A stretch of DNA of 25,896 nt from Chloroflexota bacterium (GTDB lineage: Bacteria; Chloroflexota; Ktedonobacteria; Ktedonobacterales; Ktedonobacteraceae): assembly GCA_005879655.1 (NCBI GenBank), contig VBJK01000101.1:9053-34948 (forward strand), in the 5' to 3' direction. The notes under the pieces are model-generated. The model was not told the DNA's origin, did not search any database, and saw only the letters and a program-made list of their open reading frames with translations. The translations under genes and the position numbers were made by a program. Below, piece by piece: positions 3,456 to 25,896 of this stretch (position 1 is its first letter; every line of letters starts with the position of its first letter).

Positions 3456-3612
3456 TGTTCTGCCTTCCTTTGTTGAGGGTAATGCCGCAAGGATTTCTCT
3501 AACTATTATGAAATAAAACCACCTGGCAGGCAATCAAAGAAAGAGGGAGCGTAAGAAAGAAATCGTGCAGCAGGGCAAGCACGGGGGACAAGACCTGCCG
3601 CATCGAAGCTTA

Positions 3613-4437
3613 TCAAACGACAAATGGCTCAACTTTCATAATAATCTGATTGTACCAGGGATCATGGACCTGAATGAGATCTCCTCGTACCTCAAAGGCC
3701 ACATCATGAGCTGCTAAGCGCTCTTTGACTGCCTGTAGTGCTTCGCGTGTCGGCAGGACAATCGCGTAGCTTTGCAGACCGACGCAGTGCTCTGGTGCTG
3801 GTTGGGCACCTAGAGAGTGCCAGGTATTCAAACCAATGTGATGGTGGTAATGATCCGCACTTAAGAAAATAGCTCCCGGAAAATGGCAGGTGACATCGAA
3901 GCCCAATATCGTGTGATAGAACCGTTCTGCTTCTTTAATGTCTGCGGCTCGCAGGTGCATATGTCCGATGCGTGTTCCTGCTGGTAGCACCTCCCACGGC
4001 TCAGCATAGCGTCGGCCAGCTTCAGCCAGCCCTCTATACATTTCGAGGCCATTGCCATCGGCGTCCGAGATATAGAGCGCCTCGCTGACTAAATGATCCT
4101 CTTGATAATGCTGCCAATGCACTCTGGCGAGACGGAGGAGTTGACGACCAAGATCCGCCCGCGTGGGTAAGAGGATCGCTACGTGATGCAGGCCCGTTGC
4201 CCGCCGTGGTTGAGGTGCTGCCCCTGGAAGCTCTACTAATGCCAGTAAGGGTTGCTTGTCCTGCCCACCAAGCACCACCTTTGCAGATGTGTGCTCGATA
4301 GGCTGGAATGCGAGGATATCCTCATAAAAGTGTCGTGAATGTTCAAGGTTAGAGACGCGCAGTGTAACTAGGCCAATGTGTGTGCCAGGATGAATTGATG
4401 CAGGGACTGGCGATGCTTGTTGTTGTTCTGTGGACAT
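3613..4437 (-). CDS. VOC-family protein, two-domain CatE-like (catechol 2,3-dioxygenase/glyoxalase superfamily)
   Basis: 274 residues with two vicinal-oxygen-chelate units. Unit 1 starts HIGLVTLRVSNLEHSRHFYEDILAF and includes GLHHVAILLPTRADLGRQLL and ISDADGNGLEMYRGL, the E of which is a usual metal ligand. Unit 2 starts GHMHLRAADIKEAERFYHTILGFD, with HHHIGLNTW and VHDPWYNQIIMKV. The layout resembles the Bacillus CatE family. Substrate unknown; a metal-dependent ring-cleaving or lyase reaction is expected of the family. GAGG lies 6 nt before the ATG. It appears to be a single-gene unit, with a long AT-rich gap upstream. Confidence 0.85.
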   Translation of the reverse strand: MSTEQQQASPVPASIHPGTHIGLVTLRVSNLEHSRHFYEDILAFQPIEHTSAKVVLGGQDKQPLLALVELPGAAPQPRRATGLHHVAILLPTRADLGRQLLRLARVHWQHYQEDHLVSEALYISDADGNGLEMYRGLAEAGRRYAEPWEVLPAGTRIGHMHLRAADIKEAERFYHTILGFDVTCHFPGAIFLSADHYHHHIGLNTWHSLGAQPAPEHCVGLQSYAIVLPTREALQAVKERLAAHDVAFEVRGDLIQVHDPWYNQIIMKVEPFVV

Positions 4438-8572: not shown

Positions 8573-10633
8573 CTATTGCCCTTCACTATTTCTACTCATG
8601 TGGATTGTAGACCCAGCATGCAAAATGCGGAAAGGTCTAATTCTCGGTATGGCCTCCGGCTGGCGAGTAGATACAAACTGTGCCTGGTACAGTTGCGCGT
8701 AGAGACCCTTCAAGGCCAATAATTCATGGTGGGTGCCCTGCTCAACAATTTCTCCTTTGTTGACCAAGAAAATCACGTCGGCAGCCAGAATGGTGGAGAG
8801 ACGATGAGCAATAGCCAGAGTAGTGCGGCCACGCATCAAGGTCTCCAGTGCTTTCTGGACGAGGCGTTCGGAGTGAGTATCAAGAGAACTGGTCGCTTCA
8901 TCCAGAATCAGGATGCGCGGATTTTTGAGGATCACACGGGCGATGGCAATCCTTTGCTTTTCCCCGCCGGAGAGCTTGTAGCCGCGTTCCCCGACGATGG
9001 TATCATAGCCATCTGCCAGTTCCAGAATGCGATCATGGATAACTGCCGCTTGTGCCGCAGCCATCATCTCTTCCTCAGTAGCATCCGGGCGTGCATACAA
9101 AAGGTTCTCCCGAATGGAGGCATGGAAGAGGTAGGTCTCCTGTGTCACTACACCAATCAATTCGGCAAGCGAGGCCTGTGCAATATCTTTCACATTCATA
9201 CCATCGATCTCGACCGCCCCGCTGTCCACATCGTAGAGGCGCGGGAGCATATAACTGATTGTGGTCTTTCCTGCGCCACTGGGGCCAACCAGCGCCACCA
9301 GTTGTCCGGGTTTGATAGTGAGCGAGATATTTTTCAGTACCGGGCGTGGCTCCTCCTGCACACTGGCTACAGTGCTACTGGTCTGCACTTTCCCTACGGC
9401 TGCACCCGGTTTCTCCGCAGGCGGATGCTTCGCCTTGCCTTCGTCTAGTTCTTCATCTTCGTTAAGGTCAGTCAGGGCGCTGTATTCATCACGCTTATAG
9501 CTAAAGGTGACATTCCTGAAATTCACTTCACCTCGCGTCTCTTCTGGTTTGAGATGGAGCGCATCTGGCTTGTCGGTAATATCAATCGGCATATCCAGGT
9601 ACTCGAAGATGCGATCGAAGAGGGCCATGGCCCCCTGAATATCTACCTGTATGTTCAGAAGTTGTCCGATGGGGAAGAAGAGTCTACTTTGGAGCGTCGT
9701 AAAGGCAATCATGATACCTAACGTCATATTGCCCCCCAGTATAGGGACATTATGAATAATCTGCTGACCCCCAACCAGATAGATCACGGCGGGCATGACC
9801 GAGAAAAATGTGCCAACCGACATAAGTAACCAGCGTCCAGTCATGAGTTGGCGTACCATCAGTTGCGCCAACTTTTTACTTTCTCCTTTGAATTGGTCCT
9901 GAGCATATTGCTGTCGTCCGAAGACTTTGACCAGCAGAATCCCACTCACCGAGAGTGTTTCTTGCATGAGTGTGGAGAGAGAGGCCATACTTTTCTGGGT
10001 CTCTTTGCTTATTTGCCGCCGGACAGTGCCTACTTTATAGGTAATCCACACGAACAGAGGGAGCACGCCAAGCGAGATCAGCGTCAGTAGCGGACTGAGT
10101 AAGACCATAGCAATGATGATGCTTGCTACTGCTGAGATACTCGAGACGAGGCTCGTCACCGTGATCGTGACAACACCCTGGACTCCGCCGATATCGTTAG
10201 AGAGGCGCGACTGAATCTCACCCGTCCGTGTTCCCATAAAGAAGCGTAGCGGCATGCTTTGGAGATGCTGGTAGAGTCGGTTGCGGAAGTCGTACATCAC
10301 GTTCTGCCCAACATTGTGATTCAGATAGCTTTGTCCTGCACTAATGATCCCTGAAATAACGGGTATGATAACCATAATAGCAACATAGATAAGCAGCAGC
10401 GTACCATCGCCCTTTTGAATAGCATTATCAAAAACATAGGGGATTAAGAGTGGATTTACTAACGCCAGCAGTGTTGTGAGAAGGATGGCAGCGAGAACTA
10501 GGGCCACTTGAAATCTATAGGGATAGAATGCCTTTATTACTCTTTTGATAGTTTTAGCATCGGTTTTGCGCCCACGCTTTTTCTGTTCTTCTGCATAGAT
10601 AGCCAGATCGTTATCCCTATGATCACGCATCAT
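8573..10633 (-). CDS. ABC transporter, fused permease and ATPase (exporter type)
   Basis: 686 residues from the ATG at 10633 (AGGAG 7 nt upstream; the frame is open further but without a ribosome site). Residues about 30-330 are a six-helix exporter domain (LVLAAILLTTLLALVNPLLI; GTRTGEIQSRLSNDI coupling region). The ATPase has Walker A GPSGAGKTT (about 449), Q-loop VTQETYLF, signature LSGGEKQRIAIARV, Walker B ILILDEATSSLD and H-loop AHRLST. It resembles MsbA/LmrA-type half-transporters that work as dimers. It has no C39 peptidase domain. Odd: about 45 residues of acidic and low-complexity sequence (NEDEELDEGKAKHPPAEKPG onward, near 385-430) sit between the first ATPase strand (VTFSYK) and PVLKNISLTI. 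It is divergent from the amidotransferase gene. Confidence 0.93.
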   Translation of the reverse strand: MMRDHRDNDLAIYAEEQKKRGRKTDAKTIKRVIKAFYPYRFQVALVLAAILLTTLLALVNPLLIPYVFDNAIQKGDGTLLLIYVAIMVIIPVISGIISAGQSYLNHNVGQNVMYDFRNRLYQHLQSMPLRFFMGTRTGEIQSRLSNDIGGVQGVVTITVTSLVSSISAVASIIIAMVLLSPLLTLISLGVLPLFVWITYKVGTVRRQISKETQKSMASLSTLMQETLSVSGILLVKVFGRQQYAQDQFKGESKKLAQLMVRQLMTGRWLLMSVGTFFSVMPAVIYLVGGQQIIHNVPILGGNMTLGIMIAFTTLQSRLFFPIGQLLNIQVDIQGAMALFDRIFEYLDMPIDITDKPDALHLKPEETRGEVNFRNVTFSYKRDEYSALTDLNEDEELDEGKAKHPPAEKPGAAVGKVQTSSTVASVQEEPRPVLKNISLTIKPGQLVALVGPSGAGKTTISYMLPRLYDVDSGAVEIDGMNVKDIAQASLAELIGVVTQETYLFHASIRENLLYARPDATEEEMMAAAQAAVIHDRILELADGYDTIVGERGYKLSGGEKQRIAIARVILKNPRILILDEATSSLDTHSERLVQKALETLMRGRTTLAIAHRLSTILAADVIFLVNKGEIVEQGTHHELLALKGLYAQLYQAQFVSTRQPEAIPRIRPFRILHAGSTIHMSRNSEGQ

Positions 10634-10695
10634 TGCGGGACTCCTGGAGATGAATCTTTCCACATTTTTGTAGACCTGTGAGAGTTTAGGACCAT
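10630..10695 (-). CDS. Possible leader peptide coupled to the ABC transporter (21 residues)
   Basis: An ATG at 10695 with AAGGAG 9 nt upstream opens a 21-residue frame (MVLNSHRSTKMWKDSSPGVP plus Q). Its TGA stop overlaps the transporter's ATG as ATGA, the classic coupling arrangement. It could adjust transporter translation. A frame this short can arise by chance. Confidence 0.35.
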   Translation of the reverse strand: MVLNSHRSTKMWKDSSPGVPQ

Positions 10696-10737
10696 CGTTG
10701 GCTACTCCTTTCGATACGGTATATCCTCTGGTACAGC

Positions 10738-10764
10738 AAAAAAAAGACCCTATTCTTCGAGTCT
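10738..10764 (-). terminator. Terminator-like hairpin with T-run upstream of the ABC transporter
   Basis: On the - strand AGACTC (10764-10759), an 8-nt loop and GGGTCT (10750-10745), with one G-T pair, are followed by eight T (10745-10738). It resembles an intrinsic terminator, sitting in the transporter's leader. It could be an attenuator, although it lies very close to the predicted transcription start. Confidence 0.4.
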
Positions 10765-10770
10765 CCTGCA

Positions 10771-10800
10771 AGTATACTTTACAGGTAAGAGCAGTTACAA
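10771..10800 (-). promoter_or_regulatory. Possible promoter of the ABC transporter
   Basis: On the - strand TTGTAA (10800-10795), an 18-bp spacer and TATACT (10776-10771). Both boxes are fair, not perfect, matches. Confidence 0.4.
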
Positions 10801-10950: not shown

Positions 10951-10986
10951 ATTTAAAAATAGAGCTTCTAAGAACGGATGAATGTC

Positions 10987-12708
10987 ATGTGCGGAATCGC
11001 AGGAATAGTTGGCACACAGGATCAAACACTGGTCATGAGAATGATGGATTCTCTGCGCCACCGAGGGCCAGATGGCATTGGTTATTGCTGGCGGAGCAAC
11101 GTTCACCTGGGCGCTGCTCGGCTAAGCATCATTGACCCTGATGCAGGATTGCAACCGCTTTATAACGAAACGGGTGAACTCTGTATTGTCTTCAATGGCG
11201 AGATCTATAATCACCACAAGCTGAGAACTGATCTCAAAAGGAAGGGCCATATTTTCACGACGGAAACAGACACAGAGGTAGTGCTTCATCTTTATGAAGA
11301 AATGGGAGATGATTGTGTCCACCACCTGCATGGTATGTTTGCGTTCGCTATTCTCGACGGTGAGCGGTTGTTCCTAGCTCGCGATCGGTATGGGATCAAG
11401 CCCCTCTACTATACGTTTCTCCCTGAGAAGCAGCTCTTCCTCTTTGCCTCTGAGATCAAGGGCATTCTGCAATGCCCAGAGTATACTCCTCGGCTCGATA
11501 TGCAGACATTAGCTGACTGGATCGCCCTGAATCATCCAGTAGGAACGGAGACCTTCTTTGAAGGAGTGAGGTCCCTCGCCACTGGTAGTACCATGAGCAT
11601 CCGGTGGGACCAACAGATAACCATTAGTGAGCCGAGGTCCTACTTTACCCCTCATTTTATCCGTGACAAAGACATCAGCCTGGCTGAGGCACTCGAAGTG
11701 CTTGAGGCGGTCCTCCGAAACTCAGTCGAAGCGCATCTAGCAGCTGACGTGGACATCGGCTTTACTCTGTCTGGTGGCCTGGATTCAACCTTACTGGCGC
11801 TGCTGGGCCATGAATACCAATCCCGTCCAATCTTCACCTTTAGCGTAGCCGACGGCGAGCACCATCCAGATCTTCTACAGGCTCAATCAGTAGCACATAT
11901 GATTGGATCGTCTCACCAGTCTGTCGTCATAAGCTTCGATGAGTATCTGGCAGCGATTCCAGGTTGTGCCACAGCAGAGGAACAGCCCATCAGTTTGAGC
12001 GGACTCCCTGCCTACTTTCTTTGTGGCAAAATTGCCCATCAGGTTAAGGCTTGTCTGCTTGGAGAGGGTGCGGATGAGTTGTTTGGTGGATATCGGGAGT
12101 ATCTTGATCGAGAGTTTAAGCTCTCGCGTATCCGTATGCGTACTCCATTGCTCAAACAACTTGGTGTCTCGCCAAGTGACCGTGCGCTCAATCTTATTGA
12201 ACGTCTCTCATCTTCTCCTCCCTTTGATCAATATCTCCAGAGCACTTTTGAAATGAACCTGAGCGATCCACTCGAACGCCATCATCTCAACATTTTCGAC
12301 AAATATGGCATGGCGGCTGGTGTAGAGATGCGTGTCCCTTACCTCGATGATTCTCTCCTTGAGTTAGTCAATCAATTCCCGCTTCGACACCTTGTGAGAA
12401 GAGATCTCGGTATCACAAAGTACATTCTCAGACATCTCTGTCTGCGTCGTTTTGGATACGATGTCACAGATGTGGTGCTTCGTAGGAAGGAGAGCTTTCC
12501 ATCCGTAGGTATGCGCCTGGAGCAGCGTTTCGATAGGTTATGCGACGAGATACTACCAGACGACTATTTGACTCAACATGAGTTGGGATTCTGCTTCAAG
12601 AGGAAACGAAGTCTGCTTCTGTTCGAGCTATTTTATGAGATCTTTATGGTACATCGAGGAGATGGCAAGACCGTGGGGAGTATCCTGAGCTTTCTCAAGT
12701 CCAGGTAG
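10987..12708 (+). CDS. Asparagine synthase-like glutamine-hydrolysing amidotransferase (AsnB family)
   Basis: 573 residues. I choose the ATG at 10987 so that MCGIAGIVG places the nucleophile Cys at position 2; an ATG at 10978 would bury it. The N-terminal glutaminase has LRHRGPDG, LSIIDPDAGLQPL, VFNGEIYNH and FAFAILDGERLFLARDRYGIKPLYY. The synthase half has the ATP-binding PP-loop SGGLDST (about 262), LLGEGADELFGGY and AGVEMRVPYLDD. Family enzymes amidate an ATP-activated carboxylate. It is shorter than housekeeping AsnB (about 610-640). Besides asparagine synthesis, relatives work in peptide and polysaccharide clusters. Its neighbours (Cys-rich peptide, GT fusion, MNIO) leave open a tailoring role, but a metabolic one cannot be excluded. 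The ribosome site is weak (GGATG). Confidence 0.9.
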   Translation: MCGIAGIVGTQDQTLVMRMMDSLRHRGPDGIGYCWRSNVHLGAARLSIIDPDAGLQPLYNETGELCIVFNGEIYNHHKLRTDLKRKGHIFTTETDTEVVLHLYEEMGDDCVHHLHGMFAFAILDGERLFLARDRYGIKPLYYTFLPEKQLFLFASEIKGILQCPEYTPRLDMQTLADWIALNHPVGTETFFEGVRSLATGSTMSIRWDQQITISEPRSYFTPHFIRDKDISLAEALEVLEAVLRNSVEAHLAADVDIGFTLSGGLDSTLLALLGHEYQSRPIFTFSVADGEHHPDLLQAQSVAHMIGSSHQSVVISFDEYLAAIPGCATAEEQPISLSGLPAYFLCGKIAHQVKACLLGEGADELFGGYREYLDREFKLSRIRMRTPLLKQLGVSPSDRALNLIERLSSSPPFDQYLQSTFEMNLSDPLERHHLNIFDKYGMAAGVEMRVPYLDDSLLELVNQFPLRHLVRRDLGITKYILRHLCLRRFGYDVTDVVLRRKESFPSVGMRLEQRFDRLCDEILPDDYLTQHELGFCFKRKRSLLLFELFYEIFMVHRGDGKTVGSILSFLKSR

Positions 12709-13574: not shown

Positions 13575-15710
13575 ATGACGATGAAACTATGTATGATTGG
13601 GAAATACCCTCCTATACAAGGTGGGGTCAGTCGGGAAAATTTCTGGCAGACCTATACTCTGGCACAAGCTGGTTTTGATGTCCATGTTGTAACCAATGCT
13701 CAAGAGGTTGAAAATGAATTTCGGTGTATCGATCTCCCTTTTTTGCCTCATCCTCTTGACTCTTTAGCCTCAACGCAGGGAAAGGTAACCGTCCATTCCA
13801 CTCCCAGGACAAGGCACGAATATATTCCCTGGGCCAACCCGTTTGTGACTAAATTAGCTTCTCTTGCAACTGACGTGATAAAGACGTATGACTGTGAACT
13901 CATACATAGCTCCTATTTTGAGCCATACGCTGTTGCTGCACATCTTGCAGCTCGATGGACTGGGGTCCCCTATGGAATCCGGCATGCTGGCAGTGATGTC
14001 GGAAGACTCTTCCAGGCAAGCGAGTTGCAAACTAGCTATACCAATGTTGTGCTCTCTGCAGACTATCTGTTGGTTGGGCCTAAAACATTGCGTAGCTTTC
14101 TCCACTTAGGGGTTGATCTCGACAAGCTCTACCAGCCCAGAGGCCACTCCTTGCCTACTGACTATTTCAATCCATCTGCTCCTCCCCTCGATATCAATAA
14201 GCTTCTCGCTGTTATAGCGCAGACCTTGCCTCAAGATGAGTACTACGCCCCCTATCATCGTTTGGCGTCTAAACCTTTTGATCCTTCTCTGCCGACCATC
14301 GGTATCTATGGTAAGGTGGGAGAAGTCAAGGGCAGTTTTGATCTGCTGCAAGCACTTGGCAGACTATATTCCTCCGGGGGGCGTTTCAACTTTTTGGCCT
14401 TAACCCAAGGCAGGAAGGCGATAATACAGAGATTTGCCAGGAGTATTGAAGAGTGCGGGCTCGAAGAGGTGACCTGGCTTTTGCCCTTTATTCCTCACTG
14501 GGGCATCCCCAATTTTCTCAAAGCCTGTACAGCAGTCTGCTTCTTAGAGAGGGGTTTTCCCATCACGATACATGGACCTACTATCCCACAAGAGGTTTTC
14601 GCTTCTGGAACCTGTCTGATTTTATCCCATGAAGTTGCGAACAAACAGATGAATCAAAAGCGGTTTCGTCACGGCTCTAATGTCTTTCTTGTGGAACCAC
14701 GCAATATTGACGAACTGACCCAGTGTCTGAAAGTGGCCGTGAAAGAACCGGCCCAGAGCCATACCATAGGTATGAGAGGCTATGATGACTTCTCTGTAAG
14801 AGAGAAGTTTGACACGTATAAGAGTGATTTACTCTCCTTTTTCACGTCCACCCAACAAGATATTGTCCTAAGGAGGCAGGTGATGAGTGTTGCAGAAATG
14901 CAAGCATATCTAGCACGTTTATATACCAACGATCCGTTCCGCAAGCTCTTCGAGCTAGACCCAGATACGACCATGAAGGACTATACCCTGACTGATGATG
15001 AGGTAAACGCGCTGAAGCAGATTGACATCCAGATGCTTAATATGTTTGCAAGCACGCTGAAGAATAAACGCAAAAAGCGATTTTTAGGAGCATATCCCTT
15101 ACTATTTAAGCTTGCAGATGTGAACATAGTAAAATACTATAATAGATACTATAACCTGTATCCTGCCAAACCCCATGAAGAGACGTTGCCACAAATAGTT
15201 GCTTTTGGAGAGTTTATGGAACAATCTCTGGCAACGGATGAGGATGCCCCCGCTTATAGCTGCGATCTGGTTCGCTATGAACGCCTCTATTATATGACTG
15301 CTTTTTCCCCTACGTCACAAGACGCATTTGGCGTAATGAATCAGACAAACGATCAACAACCGCAGTCCATTGGTCCAGATACCTTCCTCCGTATACAAGA
15401 AGGCACTCATTTCTCAACCTTTCGCTTCGATGTGGTAAAGATTGCCGGGGAGATAGAAAAGGATGAGCAGGTGAGTCATCTGCAAGAAGGAACCTACTGT
15501 TTTCTCTTTCAACCGCAAGCCAAATCCCTGACTCCAAATATCTTTGCCATTAGTCCCGCCACGAGAGATCTTCTTGCACTCTGTGATGGCTCACGCAACA
15601 TGGCTGGTGTCGTAGATGAGATGGAAAAGCTCCTGGGTCGTGAGCATCTTGAGGCAGACATTAGCAAGATGGTCCAACATTTATATACAGTTAGAGTTTT
15701 AGGAGCTTAA
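13575..15710 (+). CDS. GT4-type glycosyltransferase fused to MNIO-partner-like and RRE-like domains
   Basis: 711 residues. Residues 1-~415 form a GT4-like transferase: CMIGKYPPIQGGVSRENFWQ, IRHAGSDVGRLF, IGIYGKVGEVKGSFDLLQAL, and a donor-site region GPTIPQEVFASGTCLILS. From ~436 a second module begins (YLARLYTNDPFRKLFELDPD, YTLTDDEVNALKQIDIQMLN), a small helical unit like the partner proteins encoded beside MNIO (DUF692) enzymes, followed by LVRYERLYYMTAFSP. The last ~65 residues (IFAISPATRDLLALCDGSRN ... VQHLYTVRVLG) resemble the PqqD/RRE winged-helix fold that binds RiPP leader peptides. GGAGG lies 7 nt before the ATG. It heads an operon with a 67-residue peptide (4 nt downstream) and an MNIO. 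Inferred role: binds a precursor peptide and glycosylates it. The GT assignment is firm; the partner/RRE assignment is by resemblance. Confidence 0.8.
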   Translation: MTMKLCMIGKYPPIQGGVSRENFWQTYTLAQAGFDVHVVTNAQEVENEFRCIDLPFLPHPLDSLASTQGKVTVHSTPRTRHEYIPWANPFVTKLASLATDVIKTYDCELIHSSYFEPYAVAAHLAARWTGVPYGIRHAGSDVGRLFQASELQTSYTNVVLSADYLLVGPKTLRSFLHLGVDLDKLYQPRGHSLPTDYFNPSAPPLDINKLLAVIAQTLPQDEYYAPYHRLASKPFDPSLPTIGIYGKVGEVKGSFDLLQALGRLYSSGGRFNFLALTQGRKAIIQRFARSIEECGLEEVTWLLPFIPHWGIPNFLKACTAVCFLERGFPITIHGPTIPQEVFASGTCLILSHEVANKQMNQKRFRHGSNVFLVEPRNIDELTQCLKVAVKEPAQSHTIGMRGYDDFSVREKFDTYKSDLLSFFTSTQQDIVLRRQVMSVAEMQAYLARLYTNDPFRKLFELDPDTTMKDYTLTDDEVNALKQIDIQMLNMFASTLKNKRKKRFLGAYPLLFKLADVNIVKYYNRYYNLYPAKPHEETLPQIVAFGEFMEQSLATDEDAPAYSCDLVRYERLYYMTAFSPTSQDAFGVMNQTNDQQPQSIGPDTFLRIQEGTHFSTFRFDVVKIAGEIEKDEQVSHLQEGTYCFLFQPQAKSLTPNIFAISPATRDLLALCDGSRNMAGVVDEMEKLLGREHLEADISKMVQHLYTVRVLGA

Positions 15711-15714
15711 TACT

Positions 15715-15918
15715 ATGAAAACAACTTTTGAGGAAAAGAGATCGGCTCTCTTTACCATTGAGAAAATAACTTCAGTACCATCTTCTCTAAGTCAGCTCAG
15801 CGGTTGTGCTCTTTGTGGGCATTGTACGCTCTTACGTCTCAGAGCACAAAGCAGTTTGGATCGAGGGGACGGGTCTTGCCCCCGCCCTCTTCTTGCACAT
15901 GAGAAGGAATACAAATAA
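15715..15918 (+). CDS. Small Cys peptide, candidate RiPP precursor B
   Basis: 67 residues between the GT fusion and the MNIO. TAGGAGC lies 9-10 nt before the ATG, and the TAA stop overlaps the MNIO start codon by 1 nt (TAATG), so it belongs to the operon. Residues 1-30 are leader-like (MKTTFEEKRSALFTIEKITS...). Then comes CALCGHC (C31, C34, C37; CxxCxxC), a basic stretch and one more Cys (C55). Substrates of MNIO enzymes are Cys-containing peptides encoded next to the enzyme (MbnA, TglA, bufferins), which this fits. The DNA for residues 50-58 is a GC-rich imperfect palindrome (15863-15889), so the C-terminus may be repeat-derived. I do not recognise a family. Confidence 0.65.
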   Translation: MKTTFEEKRSALFTIEKITSVPSSLSQLSGCALCGHCTLLRLRAQSSLDRGDGSCPRPLLAHEKEYK

Positions 15919-16793
15919 TGACACAAACAGCCAATAGGACAACCGAGCTCCCATTTCTTGGAGTTGGTCTTGGATACCGTCCAGCGCTCAGAGAGGGTAT
16001 ATTTGCCTTCAAGGATGAAATTGATTTTCTGGAGATCATCACAGAACAGTATATCGACAAGGCCAATGATAGAGACAAGCTCGCAAAGGTCTGTGAGCAG
16101 TTTCAGGTAATCCCGCATGGTGTAAGTCTCTCAATCGGCTCAATGTCACCATTAGATAGAGATTACTTACGAGCAGTTAAGCAGATTAGTGACCTGACGA
16201 GATCGCCTTATTATAGCGAACATCTCTGCATGACATCTGCTCCTGGCATAGAGATCGGCCATCTCTCGCCACTCTGGTTCAACGAAGAGACGTTGCAGAA
16301 TACAATCAGAAAAGTCTCGGAGGTTCAGGAGTATCTTGGGAAACCGCTTATCCTAGAAAATGTGACGTATCTGTTTGAGCTTCCTGCATCTCCCATGAGC
16401 CAGACCACATTCTTCCAGAGACTGGTTGGTGCTACTGGCTGTGGTGTCCTGCTTGATGCGACGAATGTTTTCATCAATTCGTTAAACCATCACTTTGATC
16501 CTATCGCCTTTTTAGATGAAATGCCACTTGATCATGTTGTACAGGTCCACTTAGCTGGTGGCTACTGGAGAGACGAGACATTTATCGACGGGCATTCAGA
16601 GCTGGTGCAGGAGGAAAGTTGGGATGTCTTCAAAGCACTTGTCGCACGATGCCAGGTAAAGGGCGTCATATTCGAGCATGATGATAACTTCCCGGAAATG
16701 ATGTTATTGGTCGAACAAATAAGGAGGGCCAGAAACATTCTGCGAGGAGAAGCTGAAGCCATCCGCTCCTGGAAAATTCGGGATGACTCATAG
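15918..16793 (+). CDS. DUF692 multinuclear non-heme iron oxidase (MNIO), RiPP-modifying
   Basis: 291 residues, full family length (~270-300), TIM-barrel fold. It starts LPFLGVGLGYRPALREGIFA and FLEIITEQYID. Candidate iron ligands visible: H67 (PHGVSL), H102 (SEHLCM), E147 (LILENVTYLF), the LLDATNVFINSLNHH segment (about 177-191), H211 (VQVHLAGG), H226 (DGHSE) and E253 (EHDDN). Characterised relatives (MbnB, TglH, ChrH) use two or three irons to rearrange cysteines in a peptide with the help of a partner protein. Here the partner seems to be fused to the glycosyltransferase two genes upstream, and the peptide gene overlaps its start. AAGGA is ~8 nt upstream. The reaction on this peptide is unknown. 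Confidence 0.9.
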   Translation: MTQTANRTTELPFLGVGLGYRPALREGIFAFKDEIDFLEIITEQYIDKANDRDKLAKVCEQFQVIPHGVSLSIGSMSPLDRDYLRAVKQISDLTRSPYYSEHLCMTSAPGIEIGHLSPLWFNEETLQNTIRKVSEVQEYLGKPLILENVTYLFELPASPMSQTTFFQRLVGATGCGVLLDATNVFINSLNHHFDPIAFLDEMPLDHVVQVHLAGGYWRDETFIDGHSELVQEESWDVFKALVARCQVKGVIFEHDDNFPEMMLLVEQIRRARNILRGEAEAIRSWKIRDDS

Positions 16794-17003: not shown

Positions 17004-17333
17004 CGCTTATAACCTCTTGCTTAAGATAGTTCTGGTCATGGCTTAGTCCATGAGTGCTCCCTGATGGAGTTCACTCCACCAAATTTACTTTCTCCATTTC
17101 TCCAGGTCAGGATCAATGCGCAGTGAAATGGTAGAAGAAAGAGTCTCTTCGGTGATCCTCTCAAAGAAGAGAGTGTTTGTCACCCGTCCCTTTCCCTTTT
17201 TAGAACGAATAAGCCTAGTTATGCCATAAAAGCTAGTGTTATCATATTATATGTGTTATAACCATTTTAACGCATATCCACAGAGTCATGGTTATGTTTT
17301 TCTTCTAAGCTTTTTTCACAAAGGAAATTGCGT
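17004..17333. other. Intergenic region upstream of the O-methyltransferase
   Basis: 330 bp with no convincing gene. It has two tandem small hairpins, CATGG-CTTAGT-CCATG (17037-17052) and TGGAG-TTCA-CTCCA (17065-17078), and an AT-rich stretch (17220-17280) likely to hold the O-methyltransferase promoter; no clean -35/-10 pair stands out. Confidence 0.45.
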
Positions 17334-18401
17334 ATGAGCAACAATCCAATGAATGAGCGTCCCTTCCCTTCTCCACTGTTAGCGCCGACCTGTGACGATC
17401 GCCTGATCTGGGAAATCTGGCTTTCACGGTATCATCTGCCCGCGCTAACGGTTGCCGACCAGATTGGCCTTTTTTCCTTTCTTGCTCAATCTCCAGCTAC
17501 CATTGAGGAGGTGGCGGTGGGCCTTTCGTTGGGGCCACGCGGAGCAGAAGTGCTGCTGGGTCTGCTGAGCGCACTTGGCTTGTTGGTGCAGCGACAGGGG
17601 CATTTTCATCTCAGCGATGAAGCACGCACCTATCTGCTGGCTGAGAGTCCCTATTACCACGGCGACATTCTACAGATATTGAATTATCCAGTGACAGCGG
17701 CGACTCTGCGTGAATGGCTGGAAAACGACCGGGCCATTGCTTGCGGAGGTGGTGAAGAGGACGTATTAATACGAGCCTGGGAGTCTGGCGAGATGTCGCC
17801 AGAGATGGCCGCCAAGGTAACCTCTGCCACGCATGCCCATTCCTTCCCAGCGGCGATGGGCGTAGCACGCAATGGCGATTTTTCCAATGTGCATCGGTTA
17901 CTCGATGTGGCAGGTGGTTCCGGCTGCTTTTGCATCGCCCTGGCGACCCGCCATCCGAACATGCACTTTGCAGTCATGGAGTTGCCCACCGTTTGCAAGC
18001 TGGTAGAACAGTATGCTGCTACCTATGGACTACAAGGTCGCATCGAGACTATTGCCGCGAATATGTTCACTGATCCCTGGCCTTCTGGCTATGATGGGGT
18101 GTTCTTCGCAGACATTTTCCACGACTGGAATCGTGCTCAGTGTCTCCACCTAGCAAAGCGCAGTTTCGAGATATTGCCGCCGGGTGGTCGTGTCTTCATC
18201 CATGAAGTACTGCTCAACGATACCAAGGATGGTCCGCTAGTGGCAGCCGCCTTCTCGATGACCATGCTCCAACTAAAGGGCAAGCAGTATACTGCAAGGG
18301 AGTTGGCTGAACTCCTGCAAGTAGTGGGCTTCATTGGTGTAACGGTCAGGCCAACCTACGCCTACTATTCGTTAGTCAGTGCTAGCAAGCCAGCAGAGTA
18401 A
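17334..18401 (+). CDS. SAM-dependent O-methyltransferase (family 2, acetylserotonin-OMT-like)
   Basis: 355 residues from the ATG at 17334, with AAGGA 8 nt upstream; the frame is open to a TTG at 17328 with no support. The N-terminal helical dimerisation domain (LTVADQIGLFSFLAQSPATI, LLSALGLLVQRQGHFHLSDE) is followed by a Rossmann domain with SAM motif I LLDVAGGSGCFCI (about 190-200) and FADIFHDWNRAQCLHLA, where H263 is the presumed catalytic base of the family. It methylates small-molecule hydroxyls, commonly on aromatic or polyketide products. It lies next to a P450 and PKS genes, so a tailoring step in a polyketide pathway is plausible. It looks intact, unlike its neighbours on the right. 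Confidence 0.9.
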   Translation: MSNNPMNERPFPSPLLAPTCDDRLIWEIWLSRYHLPALTVADQIGLFSFLAQSPATIEEVAVGLSLGPRGAEVLLGLLSALGLLVQRQGHFHLSDEARTYLLAESPYYHGDILQILNYPVTAATLREWLENDRAIACGGGEEDVLIRAWESGEMSPEMAAKVTSATHAHSFPAAMGVARNGDFSNVHRLLDVAGGSGCFCIALATRHPNMHFAVMELPTVCKLVEQYAATYGLQGRIETIAANMFTDPWPSGYDGVFFADIFHDWNRAQCLHLAKRSFEILPPGGRVFIHEVLLNDTKDGPLVAAAFSMTMLQLKGKQYTARELAELLQVVGFIGVTVRPTYAYYSLVSASKPAE

Positions 18402-19620: not shown

Positions 19621-22600
19621 TCCTTAGTGGCAACGCACTTGGCCTGCCAAGCCCTGCGGAATGGGGAAATCGATATGGCCTTAGTGGGTGGCGTGAGTCT
19701 GTGTCTGACACCAGATGTCTATATTGGCATGTGTGGTGCAGGGATGTTATCGGCGGATGGCCAATGCAAAACCTTCGATGCATCGGCCAATGGTTTTGTG
19801 CCTGGCGAAGGCGTTGGAGCACTGGTCTTAAAGAGATTAGCAGATGCAGAAGCCGATCATGATCAAATCCATGCAGTCATTATTGGATCAGGGATTAATC
19901 AGGATGGAGCCACTAATGGGATTACGGCTCCCAGTGTCAAGAGTCAAATTGGCCTTGTGCGAGAGGTCTATGAGAAATATCACGTCGATCCTGACAGCAT
20001 TAGTTATGTAGAAATGCATGGGACGGGCACAAAACTGGGAGATCCGATTGAGTTAGAAGCGTTGTCAACCGTGTTTCAAGAGAAGACACAACGCAAACAG
20101 TTTTGTGCCATCGGTTCTGTCAAAACGAATATTGGTCATACATTGGCGGCAGCTGGTGTGGCGGGTCTGCACAAAGTCTTGCTCGCTATGAAGCAGAAAA
20201 AACTCGTACCAAGCCTGCATTTTGAGCAGCCAAATCCGCACTTTGACTTCGCTGCATCACCATTTTATGTCAACACCACACTGCAAGACTGGAATACAGC
20301 AGCACAGGGAACAGCGAGACGCGCTACCGTCAGTTCCTTTGGCTTTAGTGGCACCAACGCCCATATCGTGCTCGAAGAATACATGCCAAACTCTAGCGGT
20401 AGACAGGCGCAAGGGAAGGGGGCAAGCCCCTTTCCTACACCTACAGCCTCACCCACGCTCTCCCCGAACCTGTTCGTGTTATCAGCCAGGAGTGAGCAGC
20501 AATTAATAAGCTATGCGCAAGAGATGAAACATTGGATACAAGCGCATGAGGAGCTTGCTCTCCCGGACATCGCATTTACCTTGCAGATGGGGCGGCAGGC
20601 TATGGAGTATCGACTGGCCATCCTGGCCGATTCGCGCGAGATGCTCCTGCAAAGATTAGACAGGTTTGTGCATAATGCAGAAACAAGAGAGGTAGTAGGG
20701 ATTGGGGGTCCAGGGAGCGATGCCTCCCTGGCGGGGCTTGGGGTGCCCCCAAATCCTCCTATTTCCCAAAAGGTTTTGGGATTCTGCAATAAGCAAGGGT
20801 CAACCGGGCTATATACCGCTCAGGTAACAAAGGAGAGCATTGATGTAACACTCTTTGAAGTCGATAAAGATGGACAATCCTTACTGCGTCTCTGGTGCCA
20901 GAAGAAGAATCTCGAAAGGATAGCGCAGCTATGGGTAAGAGGAGTGAATGTCGATTGGATGCTCCTCTACACCGTAGAGACGGGAATGGCTCCCACCCTA
21001 CCACATCGCGTCAGCCTGCCCACCTATCCATTTGCCAGGGAAAGCTATTGGGTACCTGCACGTCACTCCCAAGCAGTAAAGGTAACGGCCTCAGCGCGTG
21101 CGGTGCCAACATGCGAGGCAAGCTCACCCCTACATAATGGCATCTTGCTTAGCGACACACCAAACTATAACGGCGAGCTTGCCTCACCCGCACCCCTCGC
21201 CTCGCCCACGTCTGCAAACATCGCCAGACCAGACGAAATCCTAACATTTACAACCACCTATTTAGCCAATGCCCTATCAACAGTGCTAAAAATCAGCCCA
21301 GAAAAGCTTGATCGAGCAGTAGGCTTTGATGAATATGGGCTAGATTCTATTATCATTCAACGTCTACATGCAAACCTCACAGCAGTGTTTGGCCCCTTTC
21401 CTGCCACCACATTCTTCGAGTACAAATGTATCAGCGATCTGGCCCAATACTTTCTCAGAGAACATAAAGAAACGCTGCACGCGCTCTTCCAGCAAGCCAA
21501 CCAACCCGCAAATGTTGTAGGGACAATGGTGCATCAAAAACCAATCACTCTCGAACAAGACATCGCTATCATCGGCATCAGCGGCCAGTATCCCCAGGCC
21601 GAAAGTCTCGATGCATTCTGGCATAATCTAGCAGCAGGTAAAGATTGTATTGTCGAGATTCCACAAGAACGCTGGGATTATCATACATATTACCAACCCG
21701 AAAATGGGACTGGTGGCAAAACGGGGGGCATGTATTGCAAATGGGGCGGCTTCTTGTCGGATATCGACGCCTTTGATCCATCATTCTTCCATATCTCGCC
21801 TCTGGAGGCGCGTTTGATGGACCCACAGGAACGGCTCTTTCTGCAAATAGCCTCGGCGTGTCTTGAGGATGCCGGGTATGGAAAGCACCGGTTGAGAGAC
21901 GAGAGTGCGGGAGATGGCAGAGCCAATGTCGGGGTTTTTGCTGGTGTCACCTATAATGCCTACCAGTTACATCTCATCAAGGAATACGAGCAAGGAAACG
22001 CAGTACCAGTCAATTCCCAAACCTATTCCATCGCCAACCGCGTCTCCTATATATACAACCTGAGAGGGCCAAGCGTCGTCATAGATACCGCCTGTTCCTC
22101 CTCCCTTTTTGCTATTCATCTGGCTTGTGAAAGCATCAAAAAGGGTGAATGTGCTATGGCCATTGCGGGCGGGGTCAATCTCTCTTTACATCCAAGTAAA
22201 TACATTTCCCTCTGCGTAGCTCAGTTCGCCTCAAGTGATGGGCATTGCCGCTCATTTGGTCAAGATGGGGATGGCTATGTTCCGGGTGAGGGCGTTGGAG
22301 CGGTGCTCTTGAAACCGCTAAGAGCTGCTGTGGCTGATGGGGATCATATCTATGCTGTGATCAAAGGAACTGCCGTCAATAACGATGGCAAAACCTTTGG
22401 CTATAGTGTGCCCAATCCGGTGGCCCAAACAGAAGTCATTAGCAAAGCGCTGGAAGTGGCTTCTGTCGATCCACGCACCATCAGTTATATCGAGGCCCAC
22501 GGTACGGGCACGAAACTTGGAGACCCCATTGAGATCACAGGTCTTAGCAATGCCTTCAAGGCATATACATCAGATAAACAGTACTGTGCCATCGGCTCAG

Positions 22601-24333
22601 TCAAGTCCAATATTGGTCATTTGGAGGCTGCCGCTGGCATTTCCCAGGTTGCCAAAGTCGTTCTTCAGATGAAGCACAAGCAGCTCGCACCATCTTTGTT
22701 GCATACAGTTGCGCTCAATCCGCACATTGATTTTGAAAATACACCGTTTTTTGTGCAACAAACTCTTACAGAGTGGAAGCAACCTGTCATTCAAGTGAAT
22801 GGTGAAGAGATTGTGTACCCGCGCCGTGCTGGCATCAGTTCATTTGGAGCAGGAGGGGTCAATGTCCATCTCGTTCTAGAGGAATATCAAGTCAGGGATG
22901 AGAAAGTTATTCAACGTGAAGGAGATAAAGAGCCTGTCATTATCGTGCTATCGGCTCAAAAGGAGGCGAATCTCCGTGCGTATGCTCAACGTCTGAAAGC
23001 ATACATGGCACAAGGCATACAGAGTCTGCGTACAATGGCAACGCTAAAAGATCTAGCTTACACGTTGCAAACTGGTCGAGATGCAATGTCATGCAGGCTG
23101 GCATTTACGGCGCGAGACCCTGAAGAAATCATCGAGAAACTCTCGCTCTTTCTCAATGCTCAGCAGCCTGTTGGGCACAACGGTCTCTACATTGGGTATG
23201 GAACCGCAGCCAAAAAGCCGGGCACAGATGTGGCTCTTGACAGCCGCAAAACCATACAATCTTCACCACTAGTTTCAATCCCTTCCGGGCTGACAAAGGA
23301 CATTGGCTCCTGCGGCTTCCCCAGCGGAGAAGTATACACACCAAATCCTAATAAGTCAAGTGAAAATGCACTAGACTTAGAACACATGGCGGAACTTTGG
23401 GCGAACGGCAGAGAGATCGACTGGGAAAGCCTGTATCAAAACGAGAGGCGTTTCAAGGTATCTTTGCCAACATATCCCTTTTCAAAAGAGAGATATTGGG
23501 TTGGGCGACCGCAAGGAATCGTCCCCGTAGGCGCGGACTTAACGCCTTCCGGCGGGATTGCAAAGGGCGGTCAGCCCTTTGACGGGGTTCGGGGTGTCAC
23601 CGATCAAAACCTCTTTTCTTCTTTTTTGCCCGCCGCCGCAGGCGGCCAGAAGGGCGAAAGGAAGTCTTTGGGGGCACCCCAAACCCCGCCAGAGGACTAC
23701 CGTCCCCTGGACCCCTGGCTTAAGTCCGCGCCTATGGGGGACTCCCCAAACCCCGCCAGGGGACTACCATCCCCTGCACCCCTGCCTAAGTTAGCGCCTA
23801 TGGGGGACTCCCCAAACCCCGCTAGGGGACTACCATCCCCTGCACCCCTGCCTAAGTTAACGCCTGAACACGGAACCTTCCTAGCAGAATTGTGCCAAGC
23901 TCTCGAAGGTGAGCGCCAGGCAATGATGAAAAAGTATCTGCAAGATGTACTGGCCAAATTGCTGGCGTTTCATCCCCCGGAGGTACCAGAACTTCATCAA
24001 GGATTTTTTGATATGGGGATGGAATCAGTGATGGTGGAACAGCTCCGAGTTTCGCTTGCAGAAACCTTTATGATTGAGATCAATGAAAATGCCCTCTATG
24101 AGTATCCAAACATCTCAGCGCTCTCTGCGTACACCATTGACCTTATTTCTTTTTTAGATCTGGAATTACACCAAAGTCCCGACATTTCATGCCAGGAAGA
24201 GACGGGATTTTTGGATGAACTTGCTTTACTTATTACAGACGATATACAAGAAGTACAGGCCATGGATCTGAAAGAGGTTGTTTCTGAGTTACAAAATTTA
24301 CTGACTGGTAACAGTAAAATCTTGGGAGATTAG
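19621..24333 (+). CDS. Modular type I polyketide synthase, 5'-truncated (KS'-ACP-KS-ACP, AT-less)
   Basis: About 1,570 residues, with no genuine start: homology begins inside a KS at SLVATHLACQ, just after the TACSS active-site block, so KS1 lacks its nucleophile. Order (residues from 19627): KS1 C-half 1-251 (H131 in EMHGTGT, H171 in NIGHTLAAAG); AT-less linker ending LPTYPFARESYW (~464); ACP1 (S574 in EYGLDSI); KS2 ~643-1085, complete (C823 in DTACSSS, H958 in EAHGTGT, H998 in NIGHLEAAAG); second AT-less linker ending LPTYPFSKERYW; a Pro-rich repeat region; ACP2 with S1467 in DMGMESVM (E for the usual D); acidic C-terminal tail, probably docking. No AT, KR, DH or ER domain is seen, as in trans-AT systems. 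It is followed after 5 nt by the next PKS gene. With its 5' end lost, expression of a working protein is doubtful. Confidence 0.85.
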   Translation, partial: SLVATHLACQALRNGEIDMALVGGVSLCLTPDVYIGMCGAGMLSADGQCKTFDASANGFVPGEGVGALVLKRLADAEADHDQIHAVIIGSGINQDGATNGITAPSVKSQIGLVREVYEKYHVDPDSISYVEMHGTGTKLGDPIELEALSTVFQEKTQRKQFCAIGSVKTNIGHTLAAAGVAGLHKVLLAMKQKKLVPSLHFEQPNPHFDFAASPFYVNTTLQDWNTAAQGTARRATVSSFGFSGTNAHIVLEEYMPNSSGRQAQGKGASPFPTPTASPTLSPNLFVLSARSEQQLISYAQEMKHWIQAHEELALPDIAFTLQMGRQAMEYRLAILADSREMLLQRLDRFVHNAETREVVGIGGPGSDASLAGLGVPPNPPISQKVLGFCNKQGSTGLYTAQVTKESIDVTLFEVDKDGQSLLRLWCQKKNLERIAQLWVRGVNVDWMLLYTVETGMAPTLPHRVSLPTYPFARESYWVPARHSQAVKVTASARAVPTCEASSPLHNGILLSDTPNYNGELASPAPLASPTSANIARPDEILTFTTTYLANALSTVLKISPEKLDRAVGFDEYGLDSIIIQRLHANLTAVFGPFPATTFFEYKCISDLAQYFLREHKETLHALFQQANQPANVVGTMVHQKPITLEQDIAIIGISGQYPQAESLDAFWHNLAAGKDCIVEIPQERWDYHTYYQPENGTGGKTGGMYCKWGGFLSDIDAFDPSFFHISPLEARLMDPQERLFLQIASACLEDAGYGKHRLRDESAGDGRANVGVFAGVTYNAYQLHLIKEYEQGNAVPVNSQTYSIANRVSYIYNLRGPSVVIDTACSSSLFAIHLACESIKKGECAMAIAGGVNLSLHPSKYISLCVAQFASSDGHCRSFGQDGDGYVPGEGVGAVLLKPLRAAVADGDHIYAVIKGTAVNNDGKTFGYSVPNPVAQTEVISKALEVASVDPRTISYIEAHGTGTKLGDPIEITGLSNAFKAYTSDKQYCAIGSVKSNIGHLEAAAGISQVAKVVLQMKHKQLAPSLLHTVALNPHIDFENTPFFVQQTLTEWKQPVIQVNGEEIVYPRRAGISSFGAGGVNVHLVLEEYQVRDEKVIQREGDKEPVIIVLSAQKEANLRAYAQRLKAYMAQGIQSLRTMATLKDLAYTLQTGRDAMSCRLAFTARDPEEIIEKLSLFLNAQQPVGHNGLYIGYGTAAKKPGTDVALDSRKTIQSSPLVSIPSGLTKDIGSCGFPSGEVYTPNPNKSSENALDLEHMAELWANGREIDWESLYQNERRFKVSLPTYPFSKERYWVGRPQGIVPVGADLTPSGGIAKGGQPFDGVRGVTDQNLFSSFLPAAAGGQKGERKSLGAPQTPPEDYRPLDPWLKSAPMGDSPNPARGLPSPAPLPKLAPMGDSPNPARGLPSPAPLPKLTPEHGTFLAELCQALEGERQAMMKKYLQDVLAKLLAFHPPEVPELHQGFFDMGMESVMVEQLRVSLAETFMIEINENALYEYPNISALSAYTIDLISFLDLELHQSPDISCQEETGFLDELALLITDDIQEVQAMDLKEVVSELQNLLTGNSKILGD
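20414..20435. repeat. GC-rich palindrome within the KS1 linker
   Basis: GGAAGGGGG-CAAG-CCCCTTTCC: a 9-bp stem (one G-T pair) with a 4-nt loop, in frame and encoding GKGASPF in a non-conserved linker. It is of the same style as GGGCTTGTCCC at 13049 and the palindrome at 15863. Confidence 0.6.
20701..20757 (-). repeat. REP-like palindromic element, inverted copy, in the KS1 linker
   Basis: An 8-bp perfect stem CCAGGGAG-CGATGC-CTCCCTGG (20710-20731) followed by TTGGGG-TGC-CCCCAA (within 20738-20752). Read on the - strand it matches the elements at 23668-23859: GGGGGCACCCCAA, a CCCCGCCAG block, a hairpin, then TGGACCCC. It adds GPGSDASLAGLGVPPNPP to the protein. Confidence 0.7.
23528..23734. repeat. 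~207-bp segment bounded by perfect 15-bp inverted repeats
   Basis: TAGGCGCGGACTTAA (23528-23542) is the exact reverse complement of TTAAGTCCGCGCCTA (23720-23734). The segment lies in the linker between the KS2 post-linker (ends GRPQG) and ACP2, is GC-rich and carries one copy of the REP-like element near its right end. It looks like a small non-autonomous mobile element read through in frame. Confidence 0.65.
23668..23716 (+). repeat. REP-like palindromic element, direct copy 1
   Basis: GGGGGCACCCC, then AAACCCCGCCAGAGGA, a short loop, and CCCCTGGACCCC. It is the forward equivalent of the inverted copy at 20701-20757 and of the two units in the adjacent tandem repeat. Confidence 0.7.
23728..23859 (+). 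repeat. 66-bp tandem repeat (two units) in the PKS linker
   Basis: Unit 1 is 23728-23793 and unit 2 is 23794-23859. They differ at one base (GCCAGG vs GCTAGG). Each encodes 22 residues beginning APMGDSPNPARGLPSPAPLP. Each contains GGGGACTCCCC and a hairpin AGGGGA-CTACCA-TCCCCT. The length is a multiple of three, so copy-number change would only vary the linker before ACP2. Confidence 0.9.
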
Positions 24334-24338
24334 GTTTT

Positions 24339-25896
24339 ATGTTGAAAGAACCTGGAAAAGCAGATTACACATCGCTCTTGAGAGGCTCATTAGCTACCAT
24401 AAAACAGTTAAAAGCCGAACTGGCACAGCAAAAAAAGGTGCAAGAGCCGATTGCCATCATTGGGATGGGGTGCCGTTTCCCAGGGGGATGCCATGACCCA
24501 GAAACCTTCTGGCAGTTTTTAATCGATGGCGGCGACGGCGTCATCGAGTTTCCTCGTGACAGATTCAATCTTGAGGAGCTCTATGATCCTGATCCCAACG
24601 CTAGTGGGAAAATGTACCTCAAAGAGGGCGGGTTTTTGCAGGAAAATGTGGGCGACTTTGATGCCCGCTTCTTTGGCATATCTCCACGAGAAGCAGTTGA
24701 AATGGACCCTCAGCAACGCATGCTCTTGGAGGTAAGTTGGCAAGCGCTGGAACGAGCAGGCATCCCTCCCAGACAGCTCAAGGGAACACAAACCGGTGTG
24801 TTTATCGGGATCATCGGTTCCGAATACGCCCTTTTGCCTCGTGAAGACATCGCTGTGAATCCCTATAGGCTAACCGGTACCATAGCCAATATTGCCTCTG
24901 GTAGAATTTCCTATATCTTAGGCGTCCACGGTCCATCCATTTCTCTTGATACAGCTTGCTCTTCATCGCTCGTCGCAGTTCATCTGGCCTGTGAAAGTTT
25001 ACGCAGAGGTGAATCCTCTTTAGCTTTAGCTGGTGGCGTTAGTTTAATGATCGCCCCTTCTGGCTTCCTCTCTCTGTGCATTACATGTGCTTGCGAAAGA
25101 TGGCAGGTGCAAAACGTTTGATGTCAGTGGTGATGGCTACGGACGCGGTGAAGGCTGTGGCATCGTGGTCTTAAAAAGGCTTTCTGATGCCTTGCACGAC
25201 AACGATTCTATTTTAGCCGTCATCAAAGGAACTGGTGTGAATCAAGATGGTCCTGGTAGCGGACTGACCGTGCCAAATGGAATGGCTCAAAAAGCCTTGC
25301 TTCGCAAAGTACTTGAGGAGACAAACCTCTCTCCCACAGATATTGGGTATATGGAGGTTCATGGCACAGGCACTGCCGTAGGCGATCCCATCGAAATTCA
25401 GGCACTGACAGAAGTATTTGGCCAAGACAAAAAAAGAGAACAGCCGCTCTACATCGGTTCGGTCAAAAGTAATATCGGACACTTAGAAGCGGCAGCTGGT
25501 GTCACGAGCCTTATTAAATCGGTCCTCTGTTTGCAGCACAAGCAAATTCCACCTAACTTGCATTTGCATACACTCAACCCAAAAATTCACCTGCAAAGCA
25601 TTCCGGCGGTGATTCCCCAAAAAGTGATCCCCTGGAACACAACAAGAACCGAGCGGATCTTAGGGGTGAGTGCATTTGGGTTTAGTGGCACCAACGCTCA
25701 TGTCATCGTCTCAGAATGGCAAGACGCCCCGCTGGCCTCTGCACCTTCTACTTGCATGCGGCCCTGGCATATCCTGGCCCTTTCAGCAAAGGACGAGAAG
25801 ACCTTATCTCAGGTCATCGTCAAATACAAGAAGCACTTTGTGCAGATCAGTGCAGATCAACTAGAAGATATATGCTTTACCGCCACTGCTGGGAGA
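24339..25896 (+). pseudogene. Type I polyketide synthase, N-terminal KS, frameshifted; runs off right edge
   Basis: Starts at ATG 24339, 5 nt after the previous PKS gene. Residues 1-35 are a helical docking-type segment (YTSLLRGSLATIKQLKAELA), then KS: PIAIIGMGCRFPGG, DFDARFFGISPREAVEMDPQ, DTACSSSLVAVHLACESL (C207). At ~25076 the frame breaks: it reads SLCITCACE and stops at 25121. In another frame, LCALHVLAKDGRCKTFDVSG continues without a stop to the edge, through GYGRGEG, VHGTGT (His at 25360), VKSNIGHLEAAAG, GVSAFGFSGTNAHVIV and the start of a KS-AT linker. Loss of one CT from a CT repeat explains the break. The KS resembles those of AT-containing modules (GKMYLKEGGFL, LCLQHKQIPPNL). Its fate depends on whether the frameshift is real. 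Confidence 0.85.
25068..25075 (+). repeat. CT dinucleotide tract at the PKS frameshift
   Basis: Four CT units (25068-25075). Five units would restore a continuous KS reading (GFLSLCALHVLAKDGRCKTF), so this tract is the likely site of a 2-bp slippage or of a sequencing/assembly error. Confidence 0.7.

Follow-up and report, generated by a model that had tools for sequence, protein, structure and literature searches.

A 25,896-nucleotide stretch of a Ktedonobacteraceae genome (Chloroflexota bacterium, GenBank assembly GCA_005879655.1, contig VBJK01000101.1), hereafter the window, carries on its plus strand three consecutive genes which probably encode a pathway for a ribosomally synthesized and post-translationally modified peptide (RiPP). 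A precursor of 67 residues would be oxidised by a multinuclear non-heme iron-dependent oxidative enzyme (MNIO) and tagged with a sugar by the GT4-type half of a glycosyltransferase (GT) fusion, a single RiPP recognition element (RRE) serving both enzymes. A first-pass annotation, made from the letters of the DNA, had proposed that the GT is fused to an MNIO partner and RRE; this interpretation is supported and proved largely right, its chemistry being a prediction.

Organization of the operon and its protein domains

The operon comprises the fusion gene (13575-15710; product P0001, 711 amino acids, with close full-length homologues), a candidate RiPP precursor gene of the GCxxCxxC family (15715-15918, 67 amino acids) and the MNIO gene (15918-16793, 291 amino acids, MbnB/TglH/ChrH family). 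Four nucleotides (TACT) separate the first two genes, and the ATG of the MNIO has one base in common with the TAA of the peptide, exactly as first annotated. Two short motifs were seen by eye: GGAGG 7 nt 5´ of the first ATG and AGGAG 9 nt 5´ of the second.

Residues 1-425 of the fusion (13575-14849, plus strand) form the GT domain, which passes the Pfam Glycos_transf_1 (PF00534) cut-off narrowly (26.6 versus 26.4 bits). Its profile matches in the PDB (5i45, 5.7e-10; Alr3699, 1.1e-8) are solved GT group 1 proteins, which we take to be GT4. K252, E325, H333 and E340 are invariant in alignment A5 (36 sequences including the window), and the domain carries the sequence signature of GT group 1/GT4.

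The remaining residues, 426-711 (14850-15707, plus strand), constitute the MNIO partner region. It opens with an Os1348/NHLP (LigA-like) helical segment (residues 441-497; 14895-15065, plus strand) and ends with a PqqD-like winged helix, the RRE (about residues 603-711; 15381-15707, plus strand). Fold comparison, in which families absent from the list are not thereby excluded, revealed a helical DUF2063-like domain followed by an RRE, with structural likeness to NGO1945/TglI; a winged-helix RRE fold was found for the C-terminal part. The Pfam DUF2063 family has no match in this region. The ApyI profile matches the extension at E 9.3e-7 and, likewise, 29 of the 36 sequences of the partner alignment. 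Encoded beside an MNIO, the extension thus has the architecture of the PME-type 2 class of MNIO partner proteins (PMC12452194). The proposal that it represents an MNIO partner and leader binder, to be checked against partner and RRE folds, is borne out in its partner identity by this fold, by homology to separate partners and by MNIO linkage (see below).

The third product is a DUF692 MNIO (PF05114, 264.1 bits versus a cut-off of 25, E 1.5e-78). When its printed alignment with MbnB (7dz9) was counted by eye, identical residues faced all eight iron ligands of VcMbnB (H67, H102, E147, D180, N183, H211, D224 and E253), and D255 faced the proposed catalytic base, ligands and base being as named in the part of PMC8888699 available. 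The multinuclear iron site is intact. Five named subfamilies were matched, all under their curated cut-offs: BufB (221.7 of 310 bits), HvfB (201.2/360), ApyH (126.4/400), ChrH (55.7/600) and MbnB (51.9/325).

Extended glycosyltransferases are linked to MNIOs

Homologues of the fusion number at least 661 among the best 7997 candidates scored. The best 59 of these 661 (P0004-P0062) show 96-100% query coverage and 40-100% identity, P0004 being identical to the window protein. Genomes were scanned with a fusion-family profile and GT-domain patterns, the MNIO not being consulted, and 40 loci (denoted by L and a number) were obtained; the same scan with the single fusion protein as query returned no loci. 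Eight loci are fused, 25 contain a GT with an RRE-type tail of its own and seven a GT without extension. Fused loci occur in Ktedonobacteria, Anaerolineales, an Acidobacteriota metagenome-assembled genome, Burkholderia and Pseudoalteromonas.

All eight fused loci possess a full-length MNIO, which answers the suggestion to look for the fusion beside DUF692 in other genomes. Among loci with RRE-tailed GTs, 23 of 25 have a full MNIO and two a fragment, so that an extended GT is linked to an MNIO in 33 of 33 cases, two of them via fragments. By contrast, only one of the seven extension-free loci has anything of an MNIO, and that is a fragment. The first-pass annotation tied its reading to GT homologues being linked to DUF692: this held for every extended GT, but three Patescibacteria GTs without extension stand without MNIO. 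These three (L032, L033, L034) belong to the same subfamily and keep E325, H333, P335 and E340 (A5); possibly they represent the ancestral form.

Extension and MNIO occur together in Chloroflexota, Acidobacteriota, Pseudomonadota, Myxococcota, Actinomycetota and Bacillota. Within Ktedonobacteria, four of 47 genomes have the full extension, and in each of them an intact MNIO follows at a distance of roughly 0.3 kb. In 12 more genomes of the class the extension profile matches only short RRE- or Os1348-like segments, and none of the other 43 gives a full MNIO match (one broken copy and one short fragment were seen). Across 400 Chloroflexota genomes, the fusion was found in 5 (E <= 1e-30), among them G035, where a contig end truncates it and the assembly has no MNIO, and an MNIO in 13 (E <= 1e-20). 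In Ktedonobacter robiniae, the fusion gene is split by about 2.7 kb (L007:6744-10699), and the genome contains a second MNIO adjoining a partial extension.

Origin of the fusion

A separate partner gene, counted at E below 1e-2, is present in none of the eight fused loci versus 20 of the 23 unfused loci with full MNIO. Because the profiles used for this count were built from alignment A1, possibly including tails of unfused GTs, the window extension alone was also used as query. It detected separate partners at E < 1e-2 in 17 of the 20 loci (best 1e-58, L011), and the GT's own tail in just one of 25 unfused loci (L010, 5e-4, RRE only). In a tree of 50 of the 59 domains (nine were dropped as shorter than 150 residues or weaker than E 1e-5), fused extensions fall among separate partners. 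Two fusion changes are needed on this tree; L003, L004 and L006/L008 are not placed. Derivation of the extension from the GT family's own ancestral tail is ruled out by the direct search and by an AU test (p 0.0001 for grouping with GT tails).

Locus L011 keeps GT, partner, GCxxCxxC peptide and MNIO, in this order, as separate genes. On the direct search, the tree and this gene order, we read the window gene as a GT joined to an MNIO partner, apparently with one RRE for two enzymes in place of the two RREs of other loci. Identity with WP_006975235 (model D of PMC12452194) was considered for the separate partner of L010 (Plesiocystis pacifica); this was dropped, the 276-residue reading having no start codon at its beginning.

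A family of cysteine-rich peptides

The window peptide contains a leader motif F-x-phi-E-x-phi (FTIEKI, residues 13-18; 15751-15768, plus strand), proposed as the RRE-binding strand, and a conserved core GCALCGHC (residues 30-37; 15802-15825, plus strand). It is no chance open reading frame (ORF). Wherever the gap between fusion or partner and MNIO measures about 200-270 nt (window, L001, L002, L004, L005, L007 and L011), the gap is filled by a GCxxCxxC ORF found by its position, seven of seven in all, and L014 has a similar peptide between partner and MNIO. A database search with a profile of the family yields, apart from the window peptide, 22 proteins at E <= 10, of which 21 score 3.5e-4 or better; the peptides of L004, L005, L011 and L014 account for four of the 22. 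Over 25 distinct members, the sole invariant residues are F13, G30, C31, C34 and C37, an invariance that in part reflects selection by the profile itself. None of the 25 has Ser or Thr between G30 and C37. Pfam gives nothing for the window peptide at E <= 1, and a hydrophobic signal is not evident by eye.

As a strand control, small ORFs of the 40 loci were compared. CxxCxxC occurs in 37 of 1308 on the operon strand, spread over 23 loci, versus 3 of 1538 on the other strand, confined to two loci. A motif F-x-phi-x-x-phi, loose and picked after inspection of the peptides, precedes the first Cys in 28 of the 37 and in none of the three. One of these peptides, in L009, is similar to the leader of ammosamide/lymphostin precursors (E 2e-4, below cut-off).

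We consider it rather unlikely that the GCxxCxxC protein is a small accessory of the MNIO, for example in metal handling, with the real precursor encoded elsewhere. Such a role would fit its position, directly before the MNIO wherever it is present, and the further Cys-rich peptides of two loci: six tandem precursors with GG motifs in L014 and a second Cys peptide in L005. Against it speak the hypervariable, precursor-like tail and the leader-type motif shared by most CxxCxxC peptides of the loci. In the window, the only other CxxCxxC ORF seen is 32 aa long, on the minus strand (3534-3632), about 10 kb off. A search of both strands for small ORFs containing spaced Cys pairs gave none near the operon that could be the second peptide implied by the first-pass annotation. 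In L014, the tandem array (L014:5855-7359) is flanked by two RRE-tailed GTs, and a GCxLCxHC peptide stands before the MNIO too.

Neighbouring genes

Upstream of the operon lies an AsnB-like glutamine amidotransferase gene (10978-12708, plus strand; TIGR01536, 393.5 bits versus a cut-off of 267.1), whose product retains the Cys of its N-terminal MCGI. It is 53% identical to the genes that immediately precede the partner in L013 and L020, and an AsnB-like gene is found near GT or MNIO in 16 of 40 loci; in 10 genomes selected for having one near the GT, Asn_synthase matches number 1-7 per genome. It probably belongs to the cluster as an accessory gene, and the target amidated by its product may be the peptide or a sugar acid. 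A possible further accessory gene encodes an MsbA-like ABC exporter with transmembrane and nucleotide-binding domains (8573-10771, minus strand; PF00664/PF00005); related exporters immediately follow the MNIO in L003, L006 and L008. Since L001, L002 and L007 have neither accessory gene in the stretch examined, the minimal core is three genes.

L013, L020, L030 and L039 contain a second, more distant Asn-synthetase gene beside or fused to a methyltransferase, downstream of the RRE-tailed GT, and in L013 a further GT group 1 gene lies downstream of that GT. In the window, KS-rich polyketide synthase genes occupy 19627-25121 (plus strand), and genes for an O-methyltransferase (17328-18401) and for a P450 (18518-19420, minus strand) lie nearby; this region may form a cluster of its own or continue the GT/MNIO cluster. 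An Rfam scan of the window detected two tRNAs and nothing else.

Discussion

It is established that RREs take up the leader as an added strand and pass the peptide to the attached enzyme (available text of PMC12710340). Because of this property, the fused and RRE-tailed GTs are best read as leader-dependent peptide glycosyltransferases sharing one precursor with the MNIO holoenzyme. The precursor would be the 67-residue peptide, with a leader containing the strand-forming F-x-phi-E-x-phi, a GCxxCxxC core and a variable tail. The GT4 half, tethered at the leader-binding site, would glycosylate this same peptide, drawing on an activated sugar donor. Since the core has no conserved hydroxyl residue, Cys or a Cys-derived group made by the MNIO would be the simplest and most likely acceptor. 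The fusion may have arisen when a GT4 gene was joined to a separate partner gene, leaving one RRE for two enzymes that elsewhere have two. What is observed comprises the domain architecture, the partner/RRE fold, the homology to separate partners, the linkage, the intact metal site of the MNIO and the conserved peptide family; we infer leader binding, the peptide as substrate, the oxidation and glycosylation chemistry with its acceptor, sugar and step order, and in which direction the fusion occurred.

GT4 enzymes act mostly on glycans, lipids and small molecules. A true partner and an oxidised peptide might coexist with a GT whose acceptor is lipid-linked, a small molecule or part of the cell surface, the fusion serving only co-expression or localisation. 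The likeness of the GT part to solved GT group 1 proteins (5i45, Alr3699, BshA) and the missing conserved hydroxyl residue in the peptide core are compatible with this alternative. Still, unfused GTs of the family bear their own RRE-type tail, a feature best understood in an enzyme that encounters a leader peptide, and the MNIO linkage is without exception among extended GTs; we regard such a different acceptor as improbable, slightly more so than the accessory role of the peptide. That an ordinary polysaccharide GT neighbours the MNIO by chance, as the borderline PF00534 match and the JGI name 'glycosyltransferase involved in cell wall biosynthesis' for several relatives might suggest, is hardly credible and is ruled out by the linkage and the partner fold, the more so as MNIOs are so scarce in Chloroflexota genomes.

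Several observations weigh against a shared, leader-guided pathway. The window RRE lies under the Pfam PqqD cut-off (14.3 versus 23.4) and rests on its structural match. In three fused loci (L003, L006, L008) the interval from GT to MNIO is devoid of a peptide; Cys peptides lie upstream in L003 and L008, and in L006 none was found. L014 and L005 hold Cys peptides in addition to the GCxxCxxC one, which for this reason might be accessory. Each variable tail contains 1-8 Ser/Thr, making O-glycosylation in the tails conceivable. Related extension-free GT4s exist in the three Patescibacteria loci devoid of MNIO. In G035, the genome of L018, the GT piece is cut by a contig end, and extension and MNIO were not found elsewhere in the assembly; of the four Ktedonobacteria genomes, G006 has an interrupted copy of the fusion gene. 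As to the origin, a separate partner passing the threshold is missing from L016, L023 and L031 (unfused, with full MNIO; the L031 candidate misses it at 0.011), the window extension as query does not reach the partners encoded separately in L012, L029 and L037, and the clade of fused extensions with their six nearest separate partners is weakly supported (69/60).

Among known MNIO systems, TglHI, the 3-thiaglutamate/pearlin holoenzyme, has a separate TglI and no GT, whereas the window partner is fused to one; in the Tgl pathway, a Cys derived from tRNA is added to the TglA scaffold (PMC9016710). ApyHI of aminopyruvatide and other PME-type 2 partners are similar in the ApyI match and in having no DUF2063 Pfam signature. 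These have no GT, however, and the aminopyruvatide system is ruled out by scores far under both equivalog cut-offs (ApyI 28.4 of 200 bits, ApyH as above). Bufferin synthesis shares a helical domain and RRE in its DUF2063-RRE partner, and BufB is the best NCBIfam match of the window MNIO. Bufferin precursors, however, have Sec signal peptides (PMC12452194), unlike, by eye, the window peptide, and the system is ruled out by the BufB score, the peptide without Pfam family and the partner without DUF2063 match. Methanobactin is ruled out by the missed MbnB equivalog cut-off.

The hallmark of glycocins is a GT2-type S/O-glycosyltransferase. Membership in this group is rejected, as PF00535 (GT2) has no match in the window at E <= 1 and GT group 1 is found instead. 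Glycocins, whose sugars reside on Cys, Ser or Thr, NAI-112 and cacaoidin are likewise glycosylated RiPPs, a kind termed rare in the accessible part of PMC8120280, but their sources, as far as available, name no MNIO. For the cacaoidin cluster, the accessible part of PMC8068269 gives a GT-4 enzyme and no RRE found.

A GT paired with an MNIO or its partner is undescribed in the MNIO literature searched (titles, beginnings of abstracts and some texts, without supplements and figures), in keeping with the earlier statement that no GT-partner-RRE fusion is known. Nearest are RRE-glycosyltransferase fusions from RRE-Finder, also GTs bearing an RRE; these are of the GT2 Pfam type (PF00535) and, in the available text of PMC12710340, receive a passing mention that names no MNIO partner. 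The string 'glycos' is absent from the texts of PMC10214503 and PMC12257519; the text of PMC12452194 contains neither 'glycosyl' nor 'transferase', although the Pfam names of small MNIO clusters in its Fig. 5b could still include a GT. 'Glycosyltransferase' appears in a reference only in PMC13174530 and PMC8888699 and nowhere in the accessible portions of PMC12026744, PMC10635010, PMC12636315, PMC12668002, PMC13419390 and PMC11002830. The accessible parts of PMC8776678 (Acetobacteraceae) and PMC8719888 (Pseudomonas) contain both DUF692 and glycosyltransferase and draw no link between them.

The GT/MNIO loci suggest that oxidised peptides carrying a sugar form a group not described so far. More tentatively, and with rather less confidence than in the pathway itself, we envisage a RiPP class of at least six phyla in which a sugar is placed on the cysteine sulphur or on a Cys-derived group freshly oxidised by the MNIO, the fused polypeptide acting as GT, partner and leader reader at once. 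Its product might be a sugar-capped metallophore or thiol warhead unlike known glycosylated RiPPs. The pairing of GT and MNIO is systematic, the fusion reveals which enzymes share a substrate, and the Ser/Thr-free GCxxCxxC core suggests a Cys-derived acceptor. If true, this would add a new tailoring chemistry to MNIO RiPPs, show one RRE serving two enzymes and provide a handle for genome mining, a GT4 with RRE or partner tail beside DUF692.

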